DNA from: Haloferax larsenii JCM 13917
GTDB taxonomy: Archaea; Halobacteriota; Halobacteria; Halobacteriales; Haloferacaceae
Assembly (NCBI RefSeq): GCF_000336955.1
Contig: NZ_AOLI01000028.1
Span: forward strand, 1-43,806
DNA: 43,806 nucleotides
Reading direction: 5' to 3'
The notes under the pieces are model-generated. The model was not told the origin of the DNA. It worked only from the letters and a program-made list of their open reading frames with translations, and ran no database searches. The translations under genes and the position numbers were made by a program. Below, piece by piece: positions 20,772-43,264 of this stretch. Positions within the stretch are counted from its first letter, which is position 1, and the number at the start of each line of letters is the position of its first letter.

Positions 20772-20845
20772 TGCCGCCTCCCGGATTTGAACCGGGGACA
20801 GCTCGATCTTCAGTCGAGTGCTCTCCCAGTCTGAGCTAAGGCGGC
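20772..20845 (-). tRNA. tRNA-Phe (GAA), first copy
   Basis: A 74-base tRNA starting GCCGCCTTAGCTCAG on the minus strand. The anticodon loop contains GAA, the T arm reads GGTTCAAATCC, and the acceptor 3' strand AGGCGGC plus discriminator A closes the stem. No intron. A near-identical copy lies at 22756-22829. Confidence 0.95.
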
Positions 20846-20892
20846 GCAACTTGGAAGAAGCACAGGGACGAAAAAACGATTTCGAATTCGCC

Positions 20893-21609
20893 CTACGTAT
20901 CGGTCGGTTCCCACCCGGTCACGTCGCTCGGAATCAGCTCACCGTTGACGTGCCAGTCCCGCGGGCGCAACGCCACGACACCGATTGTCGCGTAGAACCC
21001 AGCGACCAGTGCGACGACGACGTTGCCGGGGATACCTCCCACGCCAGCGCTCGCGACCAGACTCGTCTGGTCGGCGTACGCGGTCAGTTGGATGACCCAC
21101 GCGACGAGCATCACGAGAAACAGCGGGAGGTAGACACGCCGGAGTCGGTGGGCGAGCGCCTCCTCGAACGGTATCTTCAGGTTGGGCGTCCGGTAGTCGT
21201 CACCGAGTTTCTGCCGCCAGTTGTCGTCGACGACACCACCCTCGGGGTCGAGCGCGTAGGCGAAGACGTTCTGTTGGAACATGCGCACTCGCGACCGCCA
21301 GATGTCGTACGCACGGAACCGACGCGCCTCGATACAGAGGAAGATGCTCAGCGTCACGACGCCGAGCAGGATGATGTAGTGCGGGTGGTTCTGTGCGGAA
21401 AACGACCACGTGAGGATACCGGCCATCAGCGTGATTGCCCAGTTGCTCGTCCTGTCTAACCGCTCGCGCCAGGACTTCATTCGGTGGATTTCACCGCGAT
21501 ACAGGTGGGCAAACGACGACCCCGGCCCCATCGACTCCTCGAAGACGCCTGCACCGATGTGTGAGTCGGGTGGCGACGGCGGTTCTGGTGACTCCCCCTC
21601 GTCAGACAT
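20893..21609 (-). CDS. DUF2270 membrane protein
   Basis: A 238-residue protein of the DUF2270 family, predicted integral membrane proteins of unknown function. Conserved blocks are FAHLYRGEIHRMKSWRERLD, TTNWAI-like SNWAITLMAGILTWSFS, HYIILLGVV and RRFRAYDIWRSRVRMFQQN. There are about four transmembrane segments: two near residues 60-95 and two near 165-215. The ATG at 21607-21609 follows a TATA-like CATAAATA unusually closely (about 12 bases), so a downstream start is possible. Confidence 0.83.
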   Translation of the reverse strand: MSDEGESPEPPSPPDSHIGAGVFEESMGPGSSFAHLYRGEIHRMKSWRERLDRTSNWAITLMAGILTWSFSAQNHPHYIILLGVVTLSIFLCIEARRFRAYDIWRSRVRMFQQNVFAYALDPEGGVVDDNWRQKLGDDYRTPNLKIPFEEALAHRLRRVYLPLFLVMLVAWVIQLTAYADQTSLVASAGVGGIPGNVVVALVAGFYATIGVVALRPRDWHVNGELIPSDVTGWEPTDT

Positions 21610-21781
21610 TGTTGTTCTATTTATGCACAACTGCCAGCGGATATGAGCCTTCTGCCTTCGCGATGGTCCGACGCACACACTGCACAACTGTTTGGGGTAC
21701 GGTCGCCAAGCGTCGCCACTCGCAGATGTTAGAAAATGTCTCAGAACTCGATACTCCTACCGCTGCGGGAATCTCGGCGAG

Positions 21782-21976
21782 TTACAGTCGCTCGAGGTTC
21801 TTCGCGCGCGGGCCCTTGGGGGCGTCTTCGATTTCGAATTCGACTTCTTGTCCCTCTTCGAGGTCCGGGCCGCCGATGTCTTCCATGTGGAAGAACACGT
21901 CGTCGTCCGCGTCGTCTGTCGAGATGAAGCCGTAACCGCCGGTGTCGTTGAAGAAGTCAACCTTACCTTTCGCCAT
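21782..21976 (-). CDS. Cold-shock-domain protein (first of a tandem pair)
   Basis: A 64-residue single-domain cold shock protein of normal length. RNP1-like GGYGFISTDD and RNP2-like DVFFHMED motifs are present, with the acidic bias of halophiles. It should bind single-stranded RNA or DNA and remodel RNA structure. A paralogue with about six substitutions lies 157 bases upstream on the same strand; both start MAKGKVDFFNDTGG and share the leader AAAGGCA. Confidence 0.95.
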   Translation of the reverse strand: MAKGKVDFFNDTGGYGFISTDDADDDVFFHMEDIGGPDLEEGQEVEFEIEDAPKGPRAKNLERL

Positions 21977-22001
21977 TGCCTTTGTATGGGGGTCCCACGG
22001 A

Positions 22002-22017
22002 CGGTTAATCTTTCCGC
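22002..22017 (-). promoter_or_regulatory. Promoter of the first cold-shock gene
   Basis: On the minus strand GGAAAGATTAACC fits BRE plus TATA, centred about 31 bases before the ATG at 21976, leaving a leader of only a few bases. Confidence 0.5.
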
Positions 22018-22133
22018 ATACTCGACCGTCGGGTCGTGGCTCGGAACGACTCGCGAGCGCCGCCGCTCAGTGGTGTGAAAAACCGAAGAAAGTCCGTTCG
22101 TCTGTGAGAGTACCGCGTGGAACTGAAACCTGC

Positions 22134-22328
22134 TTAGAGGCGGGTGACGTTCTTCGCGCGGGGACCCTTGGGGGCCTGTTCGATGTCGAATTCGATTTCC
22201 TGTCCCTCTTCGAGGTCCGGGCCGCCAACATCTTCCATGTGGAAGAACACGTCGTCGTCCGCGTCGTCAGTAGAGATGAAACCGTAACCGCCAGTGTCGT
22301 TGAAGAAGTCAACCTTACCTTTCGCCAT
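22134..22328 (-). CDS. Cold-shock-domain protein (second of a tandem pair)
   Basis: A 64-residue cold shock protein almost identical to its neighbour. It differs mainly after residue 32 (for example EDVGG for EDIGG, EQAPKG for EDAPKG, and the end NVTRL for NLERL). RNP1 and RNP2 motifs are intact. It has a separate TATA box, so the two copies are independently transcribed products of a recent tandem duplication. Confidence 0.95.
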   Translation of the reverse strand: MAKGKVDFFNDTGGYGFISTDDADDDVFFHMEDVGGPDLEEGQEIEFDIEQAPKGPRAKNVTRL

Positions 22329-22353
22329 TGCCTTTGGATACCCGCACGACGCA

Positions 22354-22370
22354 CTCATAAGTCTTGTGAA
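22354..22370 (-). promoter_or_regulatory. Promoter of the second cold-shock gene
   Basis: On the minus strand CACAAGACTTATGAG fits BRE plus TATA, centred about 32 bases before the ATG at 22328, the same spacing as for the first copy though the sequence differs. Confidence 0.5.
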
Positions 22371-22552
22371 GCTGTGAACGAACGGAGCCAATAACCAGCT
22401 CCGAATCCAAATCTATCGAGGCATCATAATCAGAATTGGATGTGTGTTGTCTTCGACACCTACTGACGACACTCTTTGGCGGTGATTCTGGCTGTTTCTT
22501 TCCTTCCCGAACTTCCAGCCGCCGTCTCCCGAATCTGCACACTGTTTCCGTT

Positions 22553-22699
22553 CACGGGGACGGGGGACAGCTCGACCTTTAGTCGAGACTGATGAATGGG
22601 AATTACGCCGAAAAAGTATGTCGCCTCCCCGATTGTGAACTACGCCCGGAAGTGCTCGCTTCGCTGCGCGTTCCCGGTCTAGTTCAAATCCGGTCGGGA
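22553..22699 (-). repeat. Decayed tRNA-Phe fragments downstream of tRNA-Phe copy 2
   Basis: The gap of roughly 430 bases between the cold-shock promoter and tRNA-Phe holds no convincing gene. It has an anticodon-arm relic (about 22563-22587, anticodon changed to AAA), an acceptor/T-arm relic (22619-22650) and a T-arm-like hairpin (22671-22699). The relic at 22619 closely resembles the one at 20583, showing that both tRNA-Phe loci carry the same repeat set. Confidence 0.65.
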
Positions 22700-22755
22700 A
22701 CAGTTTCACTGCTCACGACTCGGTCGCGTCGCTCCCTCGGTAGTTCGCAGGAAAA

Positions 22756-22829
22756 TGCCGCCTCCCCGATTTGAACGGGGGACAGCTCGATCTTCAGTCG
22801 AGTGCTCTCCCAGTCTGAGCTAAGGCGGC
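22756..22829 (-). tRNA. tRNA-Phe (GAA), second copy
   Basis: A 74-base tRNA with GAA anticodon, differing from the copy at 20772-20845 only in the T stem (GGGGG/CCCC pairing instead of the CCGG-type stem). About 15 bases beyond the 3' end (GCAGGAAAA region) are also shared by the two loci. Confidence 0.95.
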
Positions 22830-38107: not shown

Positions 38108-38211
38108 GCCGCCGTAGCTCAGTTGGTAGAGCACCTCGCTGTTAGGGAATTCAGTTCCGGCTGTCTTCCGCAGCCACGAGGTGGTCCCAGGTTCGAGTCC
38201 TGGCGGCGGCG
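38108..38211 (+). tRNA. tRNA-Asn (GTT) with 31-nt intron, first copy
   Basis: Exons are 38108-38144 and 38176-38211 (73 bases when joined), with a 31-base intron at 38145-38175 between positions 37 and 38. The precursor folds into a canonical bulge-helix-bulge: anticodon stem CCTCG/CGAGG, a 4-bp helix CTGT/GCAG, 3-nt bulges TAG and CCA, and inner stem GGAA/TTCC. The tRNA splicing endonuclease EndA should remove it. Anticodon GTT; acceptor GCCGCCG/CGGCGGC. Confidence 0.93.
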
Positions 38212-38337: not shown

Positions 38338-38441
38338 GCCGCCGTAGCTCAGTTGGTAGAGCACCTCGCTGTTAGGGATTGCAGTTTCGGCTGCCGTCCG
38401 CAGTCACGAGGTGGTCCCAGGTTCGAGTCCTGGCGGCGGCG
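38338..38441 (+). tRNA. tRNA-Asn (GTT) with 31-nt intron, second copy
   Basis: Exons 38338-38374 and 38406-38441 are identical to the first copy; the intron (38375-38405) is diverged but of equal length. The inner intron stem is GGAT/GTCC, where the first copy has GGAA/TTCC. The changes on both strands keep the bulge-helix-bulge pairing. Confidence 0.93.
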
Positions 38442-38541: not shown

Positions 38542-38616
38542 GGGCCCCTAGCTCAGTCTGGTCAGAGCGCTCGGCTCATAACCGGGTGGTCATGGGTTCG
38601 AACCCCATGGGGCCCA
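38542..38616 (+). tRNA. tRNA with CAT anticodon (Met or Ile2)
   Basis: A 75-base tRNA starting GGGCCCCTAGCTCAG. The loop CTCATAA shows CAT; the T arm reads GGGTTCGAACCCC and the acceptor strand GGGGCCC plus A closes it. No intron. It could be elongator Met or the Ile2 tRNA whose C34 is modified to read AUA. In Haloferax volcanii elongator tRNA-Met is known to carry a long intron, which tilts this one towards Ile2, but the sequence alone does not settle it. Confidence 0.88.
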
Positions 38617-39330: not shown

Positions 39331-39996
39331 TCAGAGCGCGACCACGACCTGCCAGATTCCTGCGCCGACGAGCACCACGCCAGCGACTGCATCGAGATAC
39401 CGTTGTCGACGACCGAGCCAGTCCAGAAGCCCTCTGTGGCCCACCGCGATAGCGACAGTCGTACCCAGAAGGAGTCCGCCGAAGCCGACCGTGTACGCGC
39501 CGAGGACGACGAGTGCCGGACCGGGCGGGAACGTCACCGCTCGAAGCACAATCGCCAGAAACACGGGTGCGACACAGCCAGCGGCGGCGATAGCGTAGCC
39601 GCCACCGAACAGCACGAAGCCGAGTTTCGACGCCCGGCGCTCTGGTAACTGGACGTGGATATCCGGGCTGTAGCCGACGAGAACTGCGACACCGAGAGCG
39701 AGTAAGCCGACGCCGACGAGCGGTTCGAGGACGCCGAGGACGGGTTCGATTGACCGTCCCAAGAGCAGTATCCCTGCCGATAACACGGCGAAGACGACGA
39801 CCACGCCGAGGAATGCCGCTGCGCCGCGGACGGTGGCACCGACGACCGGCGTATCGGCGTCTGGTTCGTCTTCGACGCTCGATACGTAATAGCCGACGTA
39901 CCCCGGCAGGAGGGCGTACGCACACGGCGAGAAGAACGTCGCCACGGACGCGCCGAGTGCGAGCGTGGCCGCGCCTGCGGTCTCCGGGCTAATCAT
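39331..39996 (-). CDS. ccdA: CcdA/DsbD-type thiol-disulfide membrane transporter
   Basis: A 221-residue, six-helix protein of the CcdA family, which carries reducing power from cytoplasmic thioredoxin to the outside of the membrane. The key cysteines are Cys25 (FFSPCAYALLPGYV) and Cys141 (AAAGCVAPVF), each in a helix as expected. It is the last gene of a four-gene operon and overlaps the TlpA gene by eight bases, so the two very likely work together. Confidence 0.92.
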   Translation of the reverse strand: MISPETAGAATLALGASVATFFSPCAYALLPGYVGYYVSSVEDEPDADTPVVGATVRGAAAFLGVVVVFAVLSAGILLLGRSIEPVLGVLEPLVGVGLLALGVAVLVGYSPDIHVQLPERRASKLGFVLFGGGYAIAAAGCVAPVFLAIVLRAVTFPPGPALVVLGAYTVGFGGLLLGTTVAIAVGHRGLLDWLGRRQRYLDAVAGVVLVGAGIWQVVVAL

Positions 39997-40531
39997 CGTG
40001 TCCTCCGCGGGCCTCGTCGATGCGAGAGACGAGTGTCTCCGCCGAGTGCTTGCCTTTCGCGGTCCACGTGACGACGTTGTCGGCGTCGAGGACGACGACC
40101 ATCGGAACGGCGCTGGCACCCAGCGCCTCTGTGAGCGCGAGGTCTTCGTCGGGTGCCACGGGCCACGCTCCGTCGTGTTCGACCCACCACTCACGAATCT
40201 CGGCGCGGGTGATGGCGTGGCCGAGCGGTTCGTTGGTCACGGAGACGAACTGCACGTCGTCGCCGACGCTGTCGGAGGCCTTCCCGAGCGGTGCCATCGA
40301 TGCGGCACAGACGTCACACCACGTGGCGAAGAACTCGACAAGTGTGACGCGACCCCGCTCGGGAACCGTCAGCGTCTCTCCGTGACTTCCCGGTGCCTCG
40401 ATGGCAGTCAACGCGACTGGCTCGACACCTTCGGGTTCATCACCGAACCCGTTGCCCCCGCTGACGGCGTAAGCGCCAGCCCCCAGTGTTGCCGCACCGG
40501 CGAGTCCGGCGAGGAGGTCGCGGCGGCGCAT
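39989..40531 (-). CDS. TlpA-like thioredoxin, Tat-exported
   Basis: A 180-residue TlpA/ResA-type thiol-disulfide oxidoreductase. The N-terminus has a twin-arginine signal (MRRRDLLAGLAGAATLGAG). The active site is Cys72-x-x-Cys75 (FFATWCDVCAASM) and the cis-proline motif ASAVPMVVVL follows. Outside the cell it would pass electrons from CcdA to protein or copper-chaperone cysteines, such as those of the SCO protein encoded just upstream (three bases between genes). Confidence 0.93.
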   Translation of the reverse strand: MRRRDLLAGLAGAATLGAGAYAVSGGNGFGDEPEGVEPVALTAIEAPGSHGETLTVPERGRVTLVEFFATWCDVCAASMAPLGKASDSVGDDVQFVSVTNEPLGHAITRAEIREWWVEHDGAWPVAPDEDLALTEALGASAVPMVVVLDADNVVTWTAKGKHSAETLVSRIDEARGGHDD

Positions 40532-40534
40532 CGT

Positions 40535-41224
40535 CTACACCCCCACGAGTGCTTCGACGTCGTCGAGAACTGTGGTGGGGTTCGGTGGGTCGCCGGCGTA
40601 CGAACGCTCCACTACGCCTTCGTCGTTGACGAGGAGGATGAGACCGCTGTGGAGAAACGGCATCTCGGCTCCTTCCTCGTGTTTGTACGCCTCGCCGAAG
40701 GTGTCCTCGACGACGGTTCTCGCTCGCGTTGGTGACTCGGGGCGCAGGAGATAGCAGTTCCCGAGGTCGTACTCGAGGCCGCGTTTCGCACCCCACGTCC
40801 GGAGTCTGGTTGGCGTGTCGTGTTCCGGGTCGAACGAGATGCCAGCGACGGCGATTTCGTCGGTGAAACCGGCGTCAGCAGCGTGGGCTTGCACGTGGAC
40901 GAGGTTCTGTCCGAGATTGAGACAGATGCCGTCACACCGGGTGTAGACGAACGTCAAGAGCAGATGACGCTCGCCGACGAACTCCCGGGTCGAGACCGGT
41001 CGGTCGTGGACGACGCCGGGGACGGTGACGGCCGGCAGTTTCTCGCCGTAGATTGGATACGGCAGGTCGGCTTCGACGAGTTTGTCATAGTTCTCCGGCG
41101 GGTCCAAGGTGACGTTTGCTGGTCGGTCGCGTCCGGAGAGGCACCCGGCGACGCCGATGGTTGCAGCGACGCCAGCCGCCCGCAGCACTGTTCGTCGGCT
41201 GACGGGGCGTGATGGTGTAGTCAT
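40535..41224 (-). CDS. SCO1/SenC-family copper chaperone lipoprotein
   Basis: A 229-residue SCO protein. It has a Tat signal with a lipobox (VSRRTVLRAAG ... VAGC, Cys28). The copper and thiol site is Cys97-x3-Cys101 (FVYTRCDGICLNL) plus the distal His192 (MPFLHSGLILLV). SCO proteins load copper into the CuA site of haem-copper oxidases or act as thiol reductases. Its ATG overlaps the cupredoxin stop codon by four bases. Confidence 0.93.
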   Translation of the reverse strand: MTTPSRPVSRRTVLRAAGVAATIGVAGCLSGRDRPANVTLDPPENYDKLVEADLPYPIYGEKLPAVTVPGVVHDRPVSTREFVGERHLLLTFVYTRCDGICLNLGQNLVHVQAHAADAGFTDEIAVAGISFDPEHDTPTRLRTWGAKRGLEYDLGNCYLLRPESPTRARTVVEDTFGEAYKHEEGAEMPFLHSGLILLVNDEGVVERSYAGDPPNPTTVLDDVEALVGV

Positions 41225-41832
41225 GATTCTTCTGTGGGTGTGGTGCTCTCGTTCGACAGCAACGAGTGCGTCTGGTCGTTCAACTCCTCGATTCTGGTTC
41301 GCGCGATTCGCGGGAGTTCAGACTGCGGCGGTCGAAGCGCGGGCTGTGCCTCCGGGTCGAGTTCCGGCCATCCGACGACGACGCGGCCGACGTTTCCAAT
41401 CTGCTCGTGGGCCGTACAGACAGCCTGTGTGTCGACGTAGTCGTACACCCCCGGAGTGTCGAAGGTCCGTTCGAACGTCTCGCCCACGGAACTCATCGTG
41501 TCGCTGGCCCACGGTTCGGTGCCGGGTGGGAGACGGTCCGGACCGTAGGTGTCTGGATGGTACGCCGTCGAGTCGTGGTCGCCGGAGTGGAGCGTCCAGA
41601 CGACGGTCCCACCGACTGCGACGTGGGCCAGACGGGGTTCGAACTTCGGCGTCGGTCGGGATGTCATCGTGACCTCCACCCGCGATGGGAGGCCCGAGTC
41701 GCTCGCTTTGGGAGCAGCCCCGTCGCCGCCCGGCTTCGACCCTCCGAGGCAGCCTCCCAGTACGCCCGTGACGAGGACGCCCCCAGTTGTCGAGAGTAGT
41801 CGCCGCCGTGTGGTGGGTGAGATGGAGGTCAT
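41221..41832 (-). CDS. Cupredoxin-like lipoprotein with Asn at the axial ligand position
   Basis: A 203-residue protein with a twin-arginine signal and lipobox (Cys28 in GVLGGC), then a cupredoxin fold (about 55-155). The likely type 1 copper ligands are His86 (LHSGDHDSTAY), Cys139 and His142 (QAVCTAHEQIGNVG). The axial position eight residues after the Cys, normally Met, is Asn147. The C-terminal 45 residues are an extra tail. It is first in the SCO-TlpA-CcdA operon and probably accepts copper or electrons outside the cell. The ATG at 41830-41832 directly precedes the signal peptide. Confidence 0.87.
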   Translation of the reverse strand: MTSISPTTRRRLLSTTGGVLVTGVLGGCLGGSKPGGDGAAPKASDSGLPSRVEVTMTSRPTPKFEPRLAHVAVGGTVVWTLHSGDHDSTAYHPDTYGPDRLPPGTEPWASDTMSSVGETFERTFDTPGVYDYVDTQAVCTAHEQIGNVGRVVVGWPELDPEAQPALRPPQSELPRIARTRIEELNDQTHSLLSNESTTPTEES

Positions 41833-42016: not shown

Positions 42017-43264
42017 ATGAGCGTGAGCCTTCAGAACCTCAAACAGGCCGACGTATCAGCGCTCGCGACGACGCTCAAGAACGCTGGTATCGCCGGGGCG
42101 GGCGGTGCTGGGTTCCCGACGCATGCGAAGTGGGAGCGTATCGACGAGGTGTCGTCCCTCTTGATGAACCACCAGGAGAGCGAACCGAACTACTACATCG
42201 ACAAATGGCTCGGCGACGCGCACGCCGAACTGTACGCCGAGTTCTTCGAGTTACTTCTGGAGAACACGGTCGACCTCGTCGTCGTGTGTGCGAAAGAGTC
42301 GAAGCGAGACGACTGGATGGAGAACTTCGAGGCCGCGGCCGACCCGACGGTGTACCTCCCGGATGACCTGCCGATAGACGCCTCCGAGGAGTCGGGAATC
42401 GTCGTCGCGTACACCGACGATAGATACGAGTACGGAATGGAGAGCGTGCTGCTCCGCATCGTGGCTGGCGTCGCCTTACGCGACGAGTTGCCGATGGACA
42501 AGGGCTGGCTCGTCCAGAACACCGAGACGGTGTTGAACATCTACCGGGCGCTGGAGAGTGGGAAGTCGGTGACGCACAAGTACGTCCACGTGGACGGAAA
42601 CGTGCCCCACCATCGCTTCCTGAAGGTTCCGGTCGGAACTCCGGCGTCGGCCCTGCTCGAAGCCGCCGGGCGGTCACCTGACGACCTCCGGGATGACGAG
42701 GTTCTCGCCGACGGTGGGCCCGGGTGGTGCTTCGAAATCGAGGAGTCCCCGGACGAGTTCGGCATCACCAAACGCACCAACTGTCTGCTCGTCCTCGACG
42801 AAGACGAGGCCGAAGAGAACACGCTGGGCAACGAACGAATCAACGTCCTCAAGGCACGCGATTGGCCCGGAAACCACGAGACTGAGCCGACTACTCTCGA
42901 ACCCGACGAGGCCCGCGTCCCGCTTCTCACCAACCCGAACTTCGGGTCACTCGTCGACCAGAGCCGACCAATCGTCGACGTCGGCGACACGGTCGAAGCG
43001 GGAGAGATGATTTCCGTTCCGGGACAAGCGGGCATCAGCAACGCCCAGCACGCGCCGTTCGACGGAACGGTCACGGAAGTAACTGAGACGCACGTCGTCG
43101 TCGGCCGCGACGCGGCGGACGTGGGTGCCTCGGGTGGTCGCATCCTCGAACACGACCACAAGGTCTACTGGACCGCGTGCGCGGAGTGCGGTGCATACAT
43201 CGCACGTCCCGAGTGGGAACACCTCGGAGCGAGCACAGAGTACGTCTGTCAGGACTGCCGCTGA
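42017..43264 (+). CDS. RnfC/NuoF-like protein with C-terminal zinc ribbon
   Basis: A 415-residue protein related to the NuoF/RnfC/PduS group. The N-terminal flavin-site glycine motif is GIAGAGGAGFPTHAKW (24-39). The later ESEPNYYIDKWL matches the family's ECEP block but with Ser for Cys. A SLBB-like part follows (VPVGTPASALLEAAG) and then a biotinyl-like sandwich (RPIVDVGDTVEAGEM, PFDGTVTEVTETHVVVG). There are no CxxCxxC iron-sulfur motifs. Instead the end has CAEC and CQDC, a zinc ribbon. It may bind FMN and serve in electron transfer, but partners are not evident; the divergent redox operon is the closest hint. Confidence 0.8.
   Translation: MSVSLQNLKQADVSALATTLKNAGIAGAGGAGFPTHAKWERIDEVSSLLMNHQESEPNYYIDKWLGDAHAELYAEFFELLLENTVDLVVVCAKESKRDDWMENFEAAADPTVYLPDDLPIDASEESGIVVAYTDDRYEYGMESVLLRIVAGVALRDELPMDKGWLVQNTETVLNIYRALESGKSVTHKYVHVDGNVPHHRFLKVPVGTPASALLEAAGRSPDDLRDDEVLADGGPGWCFEIEESPDEFGITKRTNCLLVLDEDEAEENTLGNERINVLKARDWPGNHETEPTTLEPDEARVPLLTNPNFGSLVDQSRPIVDVGDTVEAGEMISVPGQAGISNAQHAPFDGTVTEVTETHVVVGRDAADVGASGGRILEHDHKVYWTACAECGAYIARPEWEHLGASTEYVCQDCR

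Follow-up and report, generated by a model that had tools for sequence, protein, structure and literature searches.

The contig NZ_AOLI01000028.1 of Haloferax larsenii JCM 13917, an entire contig of 43,806 bases from a haloarchaeal genome of 3.7 Mb, was analysed over its full length and is referred to here as the window. It carries a compact operon of four genes, encoding a cupredoxin lipoprotein, a copper chaperone of the SCO1/SenC type (SCO), a thioredoxin of the TlpA/ResA type and a CcdA-type membrane carrier of thiol electrons, preceded by an operator of the denitrification type (Table 1). The cupredoxin and SCO genes overlap by 4 bases and the TlpA and CcdA genes by 8 bases, and a gap of 3 bases separates the SCO and TlpA genes. 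This layout and the identities of the products had been put forward in an original prediction on this DNA, and both were confirmed from the coordinates, domain searches and motifs.

Table 1. The operon, its operator and the divergent gene in the window (aa, amino acids).
Feature	Position	Strand	Product and start	Basis or remark
Cupredoxin lipoprotein	41221-41832	-	203 aa, ATG	domain and motifs
SCO1/SenC copper chaperone	40535-41224	-	229 aa, ATG	PF02630 and motifs
TlpA/ResA-like thioredoxin	39989-40531	-	180 aa, ATG	Redoxin PF08534 and motifs
CcdA-type membrane thiol electron carrier	39331-39996	-	221 aa, ATG	profile match to 5vkv, Cys pair
Denitrification-type operator CGAATATGTTCG	41904-41915			matches published CGAAYATDKTYG on both strands
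RnfC/NuoF-like gene	42017-43264	+		divergent from the operon, common promoter region

The SCO protein matches the family model PF02630 (SCO1/SenC) with 37.7 bits against a cut-off of 22.8 and contains the motif C97-x3-C101 with a distal H192, all invariant in 20 aligned relatives. By the CxxxC pair, the distal His and the thioredoxin fold it is assigned to the SCO1/SenC family, and copper delivery is its predicted function. The SCO profile matches structures of Blr1131, which we take to be the ScoI protein of Bradyrhizobium; the N-terminus is lipoprotein-like when read by eye, and the model for twin-arginine translocation (TAT) signals remains below its cut-off for this protein. The thioredoxin matches Redoxin PF08534 (52.8 bits, cut-off 26.6) and shows W71-C72-x2-C75 together with Pro143, of which C72, C75 and P143 are invariant and W71 is nearly so in 19 aligned sequences. 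The WCxxC motif and the conserved Pro within a thioredoxin domain assign it to the TlpA/ResA group; its N-terminus, in a reading by eye only, is twin-arginine-like, and its location on the outer face is putative. The CcdA protein alone gave no Pfam or NCBIfam match at an expectation value (E) of 0.1, and the Pfam model DsbD_TM recognises one of 24 aligned members, while a profile of these 24 members matches the solved CcdA structure 5vkv (E 2.8e-9). Cys25, Cys141, P24 and P144 are invariant in all 24 and both Cys residues lie in the membrane, so that the protein is classified, from two membrane Cys residues beside conserved Pro residues and from the similarity to 5vkv, as a predicted member of the CcdA family.

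The cupredoxin has a twin-arginine and lipobox-like N-terminus (by eye), followed by a pseudoazurin/plastocyanin-like domain at about residues 50-155 and a C-terminal helix. It matches Copper-bind PF00127 with 22.7 bits (cut-off 21.2) and no other model at E 0.1; a PCuAC domain was not found in any of the four proteins. The curated cut-off for halocyanins (TIGR03102, 29.7 bits against 93.8) and that of the pseudoazurin family model (19.7 against 109.85) are not reached. Alignment with pseudoazurin gave H86, C139 and H142 as ligand-like residues, and thus the His/Cys/His part of a predicted type 1 copper site is present and the axial Met is not. Asn147 occupies the position that is usually Met, and all 24 aligned members have Asn, Ala, Gly or Ser in place of the axial Met; the first His ligand is lost in two of the 24, both from Halorubrum, where Asn replaces it. 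A five-residue insertion precedes Cys139. The AlphaFold model has a mean predicted local distance difference test (pLDDT) value of 80, falling below 50 in the loop 140-143, and the top structural matches of this model among those listed are pseudoazurins (Z 15.6, 120 aligned residues, 1.9 Å). Among the sister halocyanins, L142 and L143 retain the Cys, possess the Met and lack the insertion, with no annotated SCO gene in the surrounding 6.4 kb of either, and a third is aberrant.

A scan of the contigs of named genomes with an alignment of four cupredoxin sequences yielded 23 loci. All four genes stand side by side in the order cupredoxin-SCO-TlpA-CcdA at 17 of them, or at 18 when L117, with one inserted gene, is counted, so the conservation of order on which the original prediction had staked itself was found. 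Its extracytoplasmic copper/thiol module is well supported by this order, by the twin-arginine N-termini read by eye, by the CxxxC and His of SCO, the WCxxC of TlpA and the Cys pair of CcdA. The gene directly upstream on the same strand is nirK, encoding the copper nitrite reductase NirK, at 15 of the 23 loci; the eight others are L102 (read from its twin L034), L104, L105, L109, L110, L111, L119 (at a contig edge) and L124 (with a broken cupredoxin). The neighbour families of the relatives (nirK, an oxidase-like set and a copper ATPase) were domain-tested for examples only, among which the nirK products of L122, L103, L113 and L116, as well as that of the window genome itself, pass the TIGR02376 cut-off. 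At L113 (8338-11176), from Natronomonas sp. LN261, the cupredoxin and SCO genes are both tandemly duplicated behind nirK.

The survey was extended to 391 genomes drawn evenly from the class. A cupredoxin group of at least 239 bits comprised 41 loci in 36 genomes, the line between this group and the sister halocyanins having been drawn after the list was viewed; a partial, broken cupredoxin in G006 (200.8 bits) was excluded from the 41 loci and retained among the 37 genomes in which NosZ and oxidase subunit I were sought. At 31 of the 41 loci nirK lies directly upstream on the same strand, with 14-120 bp between match ends, SCO lies no more than 2 kb downstream of the cupredoxin at 37, and both neighbours are present at 27. 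Among the 391 genomes 209 contain nirK (E 1e-80), namely 35 of the 36 genomes of the cupredoxin group versus 174 of the 355 others (Fisher p 1.5e-9, uncorrected for kinship). The 23 named and 41 surveyed loci overlap and are not independent (G025 is L102, and G289, G371 and G265 share coordinates with L104, L103 and L105), and the counts 35/36, 17/23 and 15/23, together with 32/37 and the 17 and 11 operator sites given below, were made by eye from tables. Decay is seen both ways: in G006 the cupredoxin is broken and nirK gave no match, and G007 has a nirK along with a cupredoxin remnant. In G107 (L093, 9236-10812) nirK is followed by a truncated CcdA that matches residues 64-221 only, and the middle of the cassette seems to be deleted, while G222, G376 and G218 each contain two nirK-cupredoxin pairs within a few kb.

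The distance from the operator CGAATATGTTCG is 71 bases to the ATG of the cupredoxin gene and 101 bases to the divergent gene at 42017. The motif CGAAYATDKTYG has been described in denitrification promoters of Haloferax mediterranei (PMC10062603, PMC11218638), where its distance from the gene is 79 nt for nirK, 66 nt for nor and 69 nt for nosZ (PMC10062603), a spacing similar to that in the window. Its mutation significantly lowered the activity of the nosZ and nor promoters (PMC10062603). With such an operator near its promoter the operon is a candidate member of the denitrification regulon and may be controlled through this site, as may the divergent gene. The strict form CGAAYATDKTYG occurs in the window at one site, on both strands, as compared with a mean of 0.06 matches in shuffled sequences, of which 1 in 100 reaches two. 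The window genome contains 17 strict sites, 11 of them matching on both strands, and none for a reversed-pattern control. Seven of the ten other palindromic sites belong to its nirK/nor clusters: five on C14 surround genes for qNor, an HTH_10 regulator, a two-domain multicopper oxidase, a radical SAM protein, a DUF2249 protein and a halocyanin, and two on C15 precede nirK and the two-domain halocyanin gene adjoining it.

The cassette of Haloferax elongans has the same operator site. When the 200 bp upstream of cassette genes were compared, the strict site was present at 7 of 22 cupredoxin-type loci versus none of 18 other SCO operons (p 0.011), and the relaxed CGAA-N4-TTCG at 10 of 22 versus 1 of 18 (p 0.011); the 22 do not include L115, where no SCO was called, and L124, and more upstream stretches were tested for the cupredoxin-type loci, which gave them a slight advantage. 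The strict site being found at 7 of 22 loci, the operator is common to some cassettes and not to all. At L130 (276-1400) a two-domain multicopper oxidase, far below the NirK cut-off, stands by the same operator near qNor and an HTH_10 regulator. The RnfC/NuoF-like gene on the other side of the promoter region occurs in two of 15 Haloferax genomes, the same two that have the cassette. It was not seen in the printed stretches of the 22 other cassette loci (at most about a dozen genes each), and its H. mediterranei homologue is on the plasmid pHME505 beside a transposase; a functional link between this gene and the cassette is no more than a possibility.

The locus nearest to that of the window is that of H. 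elongans, with an SCO 94% identical. Within the genus the cassette SCO is present in two of 15 genomes (100% in the window genome and 94% in H. elongans), all other matches being at most 40% identical. In an SCO tree (quick search, supported by the Shimodaira-Hasegawa-like approximate likelihood ratio test, SH-aLRT, only) the cupredoxin-linked SCO proteins form one group with an SH-aLRT of 97, in which 24 of 26 rows are cupredoxin-linked; the two others are G007, with its decayed cupredoxin remnant, and L054, a plasmid locus with no cupredoxin in the printed map. Lateral transfer is suggested by the position of the window SCO, which falls with those of Haloarcula salina and Natrarchaeobius rather than with those of Halorubrum, although Halorubrum belongs to the same family as the window genome. 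A second SCO and TlpA/CcdA set is located elsewhere in each of the genus members that were mapped (G023, G031 and the window genome); that of the window genome (L045 1-4086, L046 13811-14866) is broken across the ends of contigs C8 and C9. Its SCO gene seems to be split over the two contig ends, with genes for a thioredoxin-like lipoprotein, DUF7405 and DUF7350 alongside, and no operator was found before this SCO.

Two tandem, nearly identical tRNA genes of 104 bases lie elsewhere in the window (38108-38211 and 38338-38441, + strand; Rfam tRNA, 62.3 bits each). They are not listed by ARAGORN, are probably intron-bearing and are followed by a tRNA-Met at 38542. A stretch of about 2 kb (20772-22829) contains two tRNA-Phe genes and two near-identical cold-shock-like genes of 64 aa (21782-21976 and 22134-22328).

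A gene set of like composition is known from H. mediterranei, where the operon E6P09_05575-05560 encodes a cupredoxin-domain protein, an SCO, a thioredoxin and a cytochrome c biogenesis protein, with log2 fold changes in denitrification of 7.35, 7.56, 6.51 and 3.05 (PMC11218638, Table 4). The functions and their order are the same as in the window, although induction in denitrification is reported for H. mediterranei alone, and a difference is that the preceding listed operon there ends with a gene annotated as a multicopper oxidase. HFX_RS02445 was called a copper nitrite reductase and is two tags from the SCO HFX_RS02435 (PMC9240420); a similarly annotated protein was just 23.3% similar and another copper oxidoreductase was preferred (PMC7754194), and in view of the latter report HFX_RS02445 was not counted as an H. 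mediterranei nirK neighbour of SCO. In the parts of the literature examined, which did not cover a 2013 study on NirK maturation and Tat export in H. mediterranei, no copper chaperone for an archaeal nitrite reductase is named. A comparable relay operates in Bradyrhizobium, where TlpA, a membrane-anchored thioredoxin, reduces ScoI before metallation as well as COX II (PMC6696091); here the corresponding steps are predicted from the genes, and the systems differ in that the client there is COX II, whereas the window operon has a cupredoxin and a denitrification operator and lies in a genome where the linked CuA-type enzyme described below was not found. The Neisseria protein AccA, a metallochaperone for the copper nitrite reductase AniA (PMC13006917), is likewise a dedicated extracytoplasmic chaperone for such an enzyme, but it is a PCuAC protein.

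Other copper enzymes occur in the cassette genomes. Several cassette loci have, at a distance of a few kb at most, genes for a subunit II of the CuA type (CxxxCxxxH, by eye) and a subunit I of the heme-copper superfamily. At L103 (11843-14879), L111 (11977-15081) and others, these stand beside nirK cassettes with a third subunit, the subunit I being far below the CtaD cut-off, and several such oxidase-like loci also carry a gene of the heme o synthase type as well as one for a copper ATPase. We presume, by eye, that the linked subunit I is of the nitric oxide (NO) reductase-like kind, without the tyrosine motif of oxygen reductases, and the set may represent an NO reductase belonging to a family that has been proposed. 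The claim of the original prediction that no oxidase subunit is encoded nearby holds within the window, but in many relatives nirK, the CuA-type heme-copper oxidase/NO-reductase-like set and the copper ATPase adjoin the cassette. Five of the 37 genomes, namely those of the window, H. elongans, G289, G265 and G006, yielded no copy of the linked CuA-type enzyme (best matches 28-30% identity), for which reason it was rejected as the sole client. NosZ is present in 24 of the 37 cassette genomes, with a copy in the window genome at C15:24919-26763, and was not found in the other 13. It is near the cassette in none of the 24, the nearest on one contig being about 0.7 Mb away (G277). In H. elongans the cassette and nirK are present, while NosZ and the linked CuA-type enzyme were not found. 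Given NosZ in 24 of 37 genomes, subunit I in 32 of 37 and the nirK of H. elongans without either, NirK is the most constant partner.

From the gene identities, the motifs, the conserved order, the adjacency and co-occurrence with nirK, the separate SCO group and the operator position we infer that the four genes form a denitrification-regulon cassette for the assembly of copper sites on the outer face of the membrane, in which a relay from CcdA through TlpA to SCO helps to load NirK; a probability of roughly 0.6 is given to this reading. A copper-loading toolkit for NirK is most likely, since nirK is the next gene in many relatives and the operon bears a denitrification operator. CcdA would hand electrons from cytoplasmic thiols to TlpA, which would keep the CxxxC of SCO reduced, and the reduced SCO would bind copper and help to metallate NirK outside the cell. 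The cupredoxin may be a copper partner of SCO or an electron donor, and in relatives with a CuA-type heme-copper oxidase/NO-reductase-like enzyme copper is probably loaded into that enzyme too. The suggestion in the original prediction that the cupredoxin itself is the client appears to be its weaker part, considering nirK next upstream at 31 of 41 loci, the denitrification operator and the induction in H. mediterranei.

Several observations weigh against NirK as the client. The cassette is absent from 174 of the 209 nirK genomes, which means that NirK does not generally depend on it; nirK stands elsewhere, apart from the cassette, in the window genome and in H. elongans; G265 carries the cassette with nirK fragments only, and nirK is in two pieces, perhaps frameshifted, in G184 and G190. 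The best known role of SCO proteins concerns CuA, a site that NirK lacks. Found at 66-100% identity in 32 of 37 genomes, the linked oxidase/NO-reductase-like subunit I comes close to NirK as a partner, and the window genome and H. elongans retain an ordinary heme-copper oxidase (28-29% matches). As for the operator, it sits between two divergent genes, it is found in its strict form at just 7 of 22 cassette loci, in 4 of those 7 before SCO and not before the cupredoxin, and the window shows no excess of the looser CGAA-N4-TTCG (1 occurrence against an expectation of 2.1). Mutation of the operator was also without significant effect on the H. mediterranei nirK promoter (PMC10062603), and the H. 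mediterranei operon is likened to this one by its gene order and annotation rather than by sequence, the searches having returned no match from that chromosome.

The cupredoxin could instead be a pseudoazurin-like halocyanin that donates electrons to NirK, the SCO, TlpA and CcdA proteins maturing its own copper site as had been proposed originally. Pseudoazurins are NirK donors in denitrifying bacteria and the best structural matches of the window protein, which retains H86, C139 and H142, and its gene adjoins nirK at most of the surveyed loci. The loss of the axial Met in every aligned member, that of the first His in both Halorubrum members, the insertion before the Cys and the scores below the curated cut-offs set it apart from pseudoazurins and halocyanins. 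Two sister halocyanins, moreover, have the Met and no insertion, with no SCO annotated around them, and nirK of the window genome has its own two-domain halocyanin beside it with an operator of its own; this reading, in which a donor role and maturation of the cupredoxin's own site are combined, is judged unlikely. An electron donor of an unusual kind and a protein that hands on copper would both fit the features of the cupredoxin, with a slight lean to the latter because of this two-domain halocyanin. It is tempting to speculate, although only tentatively, that a lipoprotein of pseudoazurin fold, having lost the axial Met and in Halorubrum one His as well, has changed from carrying electrons to handing copper on in a pair with SCO, one that CcdA and TlpA recharge and that is dedicated to NirK.

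Maturation of the CuA site of NosZ was suggested for H. mediterranei by authors who describe this as speculation and state that there is no evidence for it (PMC11218638). The window genome does contain NosZ, but its apparent lack in 13 cassette genomes, H. elongans included, and its distance from the cassette in the other 24 make this client very improbable. The classical role of SCO would point to the CuA subunit of a heme-copper oxidase or NO-reductase-like enzyme, as would the subunits near several cassettes, the frequency of subunit I and the ordinary oxidase of the window genome (29% match). The five genomes in which the linked enzyme was not found speak against it, and the second SCO and TlpA/CcdA set, without an operator before its SCO, could serve the ordinary oxidase; such a client is considered improbable. 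A module for copper stress or disulfide repair in general, serving no dedicated client, would agree with haloarchaeal plasmids, on which four of five annotated regions viewed show SCO-TlpA-CcdA without annotated cupredoxin or nirK and the fifth SCO-TlpA with a hypothetical protein, some of them near potassium or metal transport genes. It is hardly to be expected for a cupredoxin type tied to nirK and to a denitrification operator, the strict form of which precedes none of the 18 other SCO operons.

The proposed copper-loading cassette for NirK offers one operon, one operator and one client, which are testable in cultured haloarchaea. H. elongans, in which nirK was found and NosZ and the linked CuA-type enzyme were not, separates NirK from the other copper enzymes of denitrification, and the published guess about the client of such an operon would move from NosZ to NirK. 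If the cupredoxin and SCO are indeed a hand-off pair, nitrite respiration would have its own redox-gated copper line.

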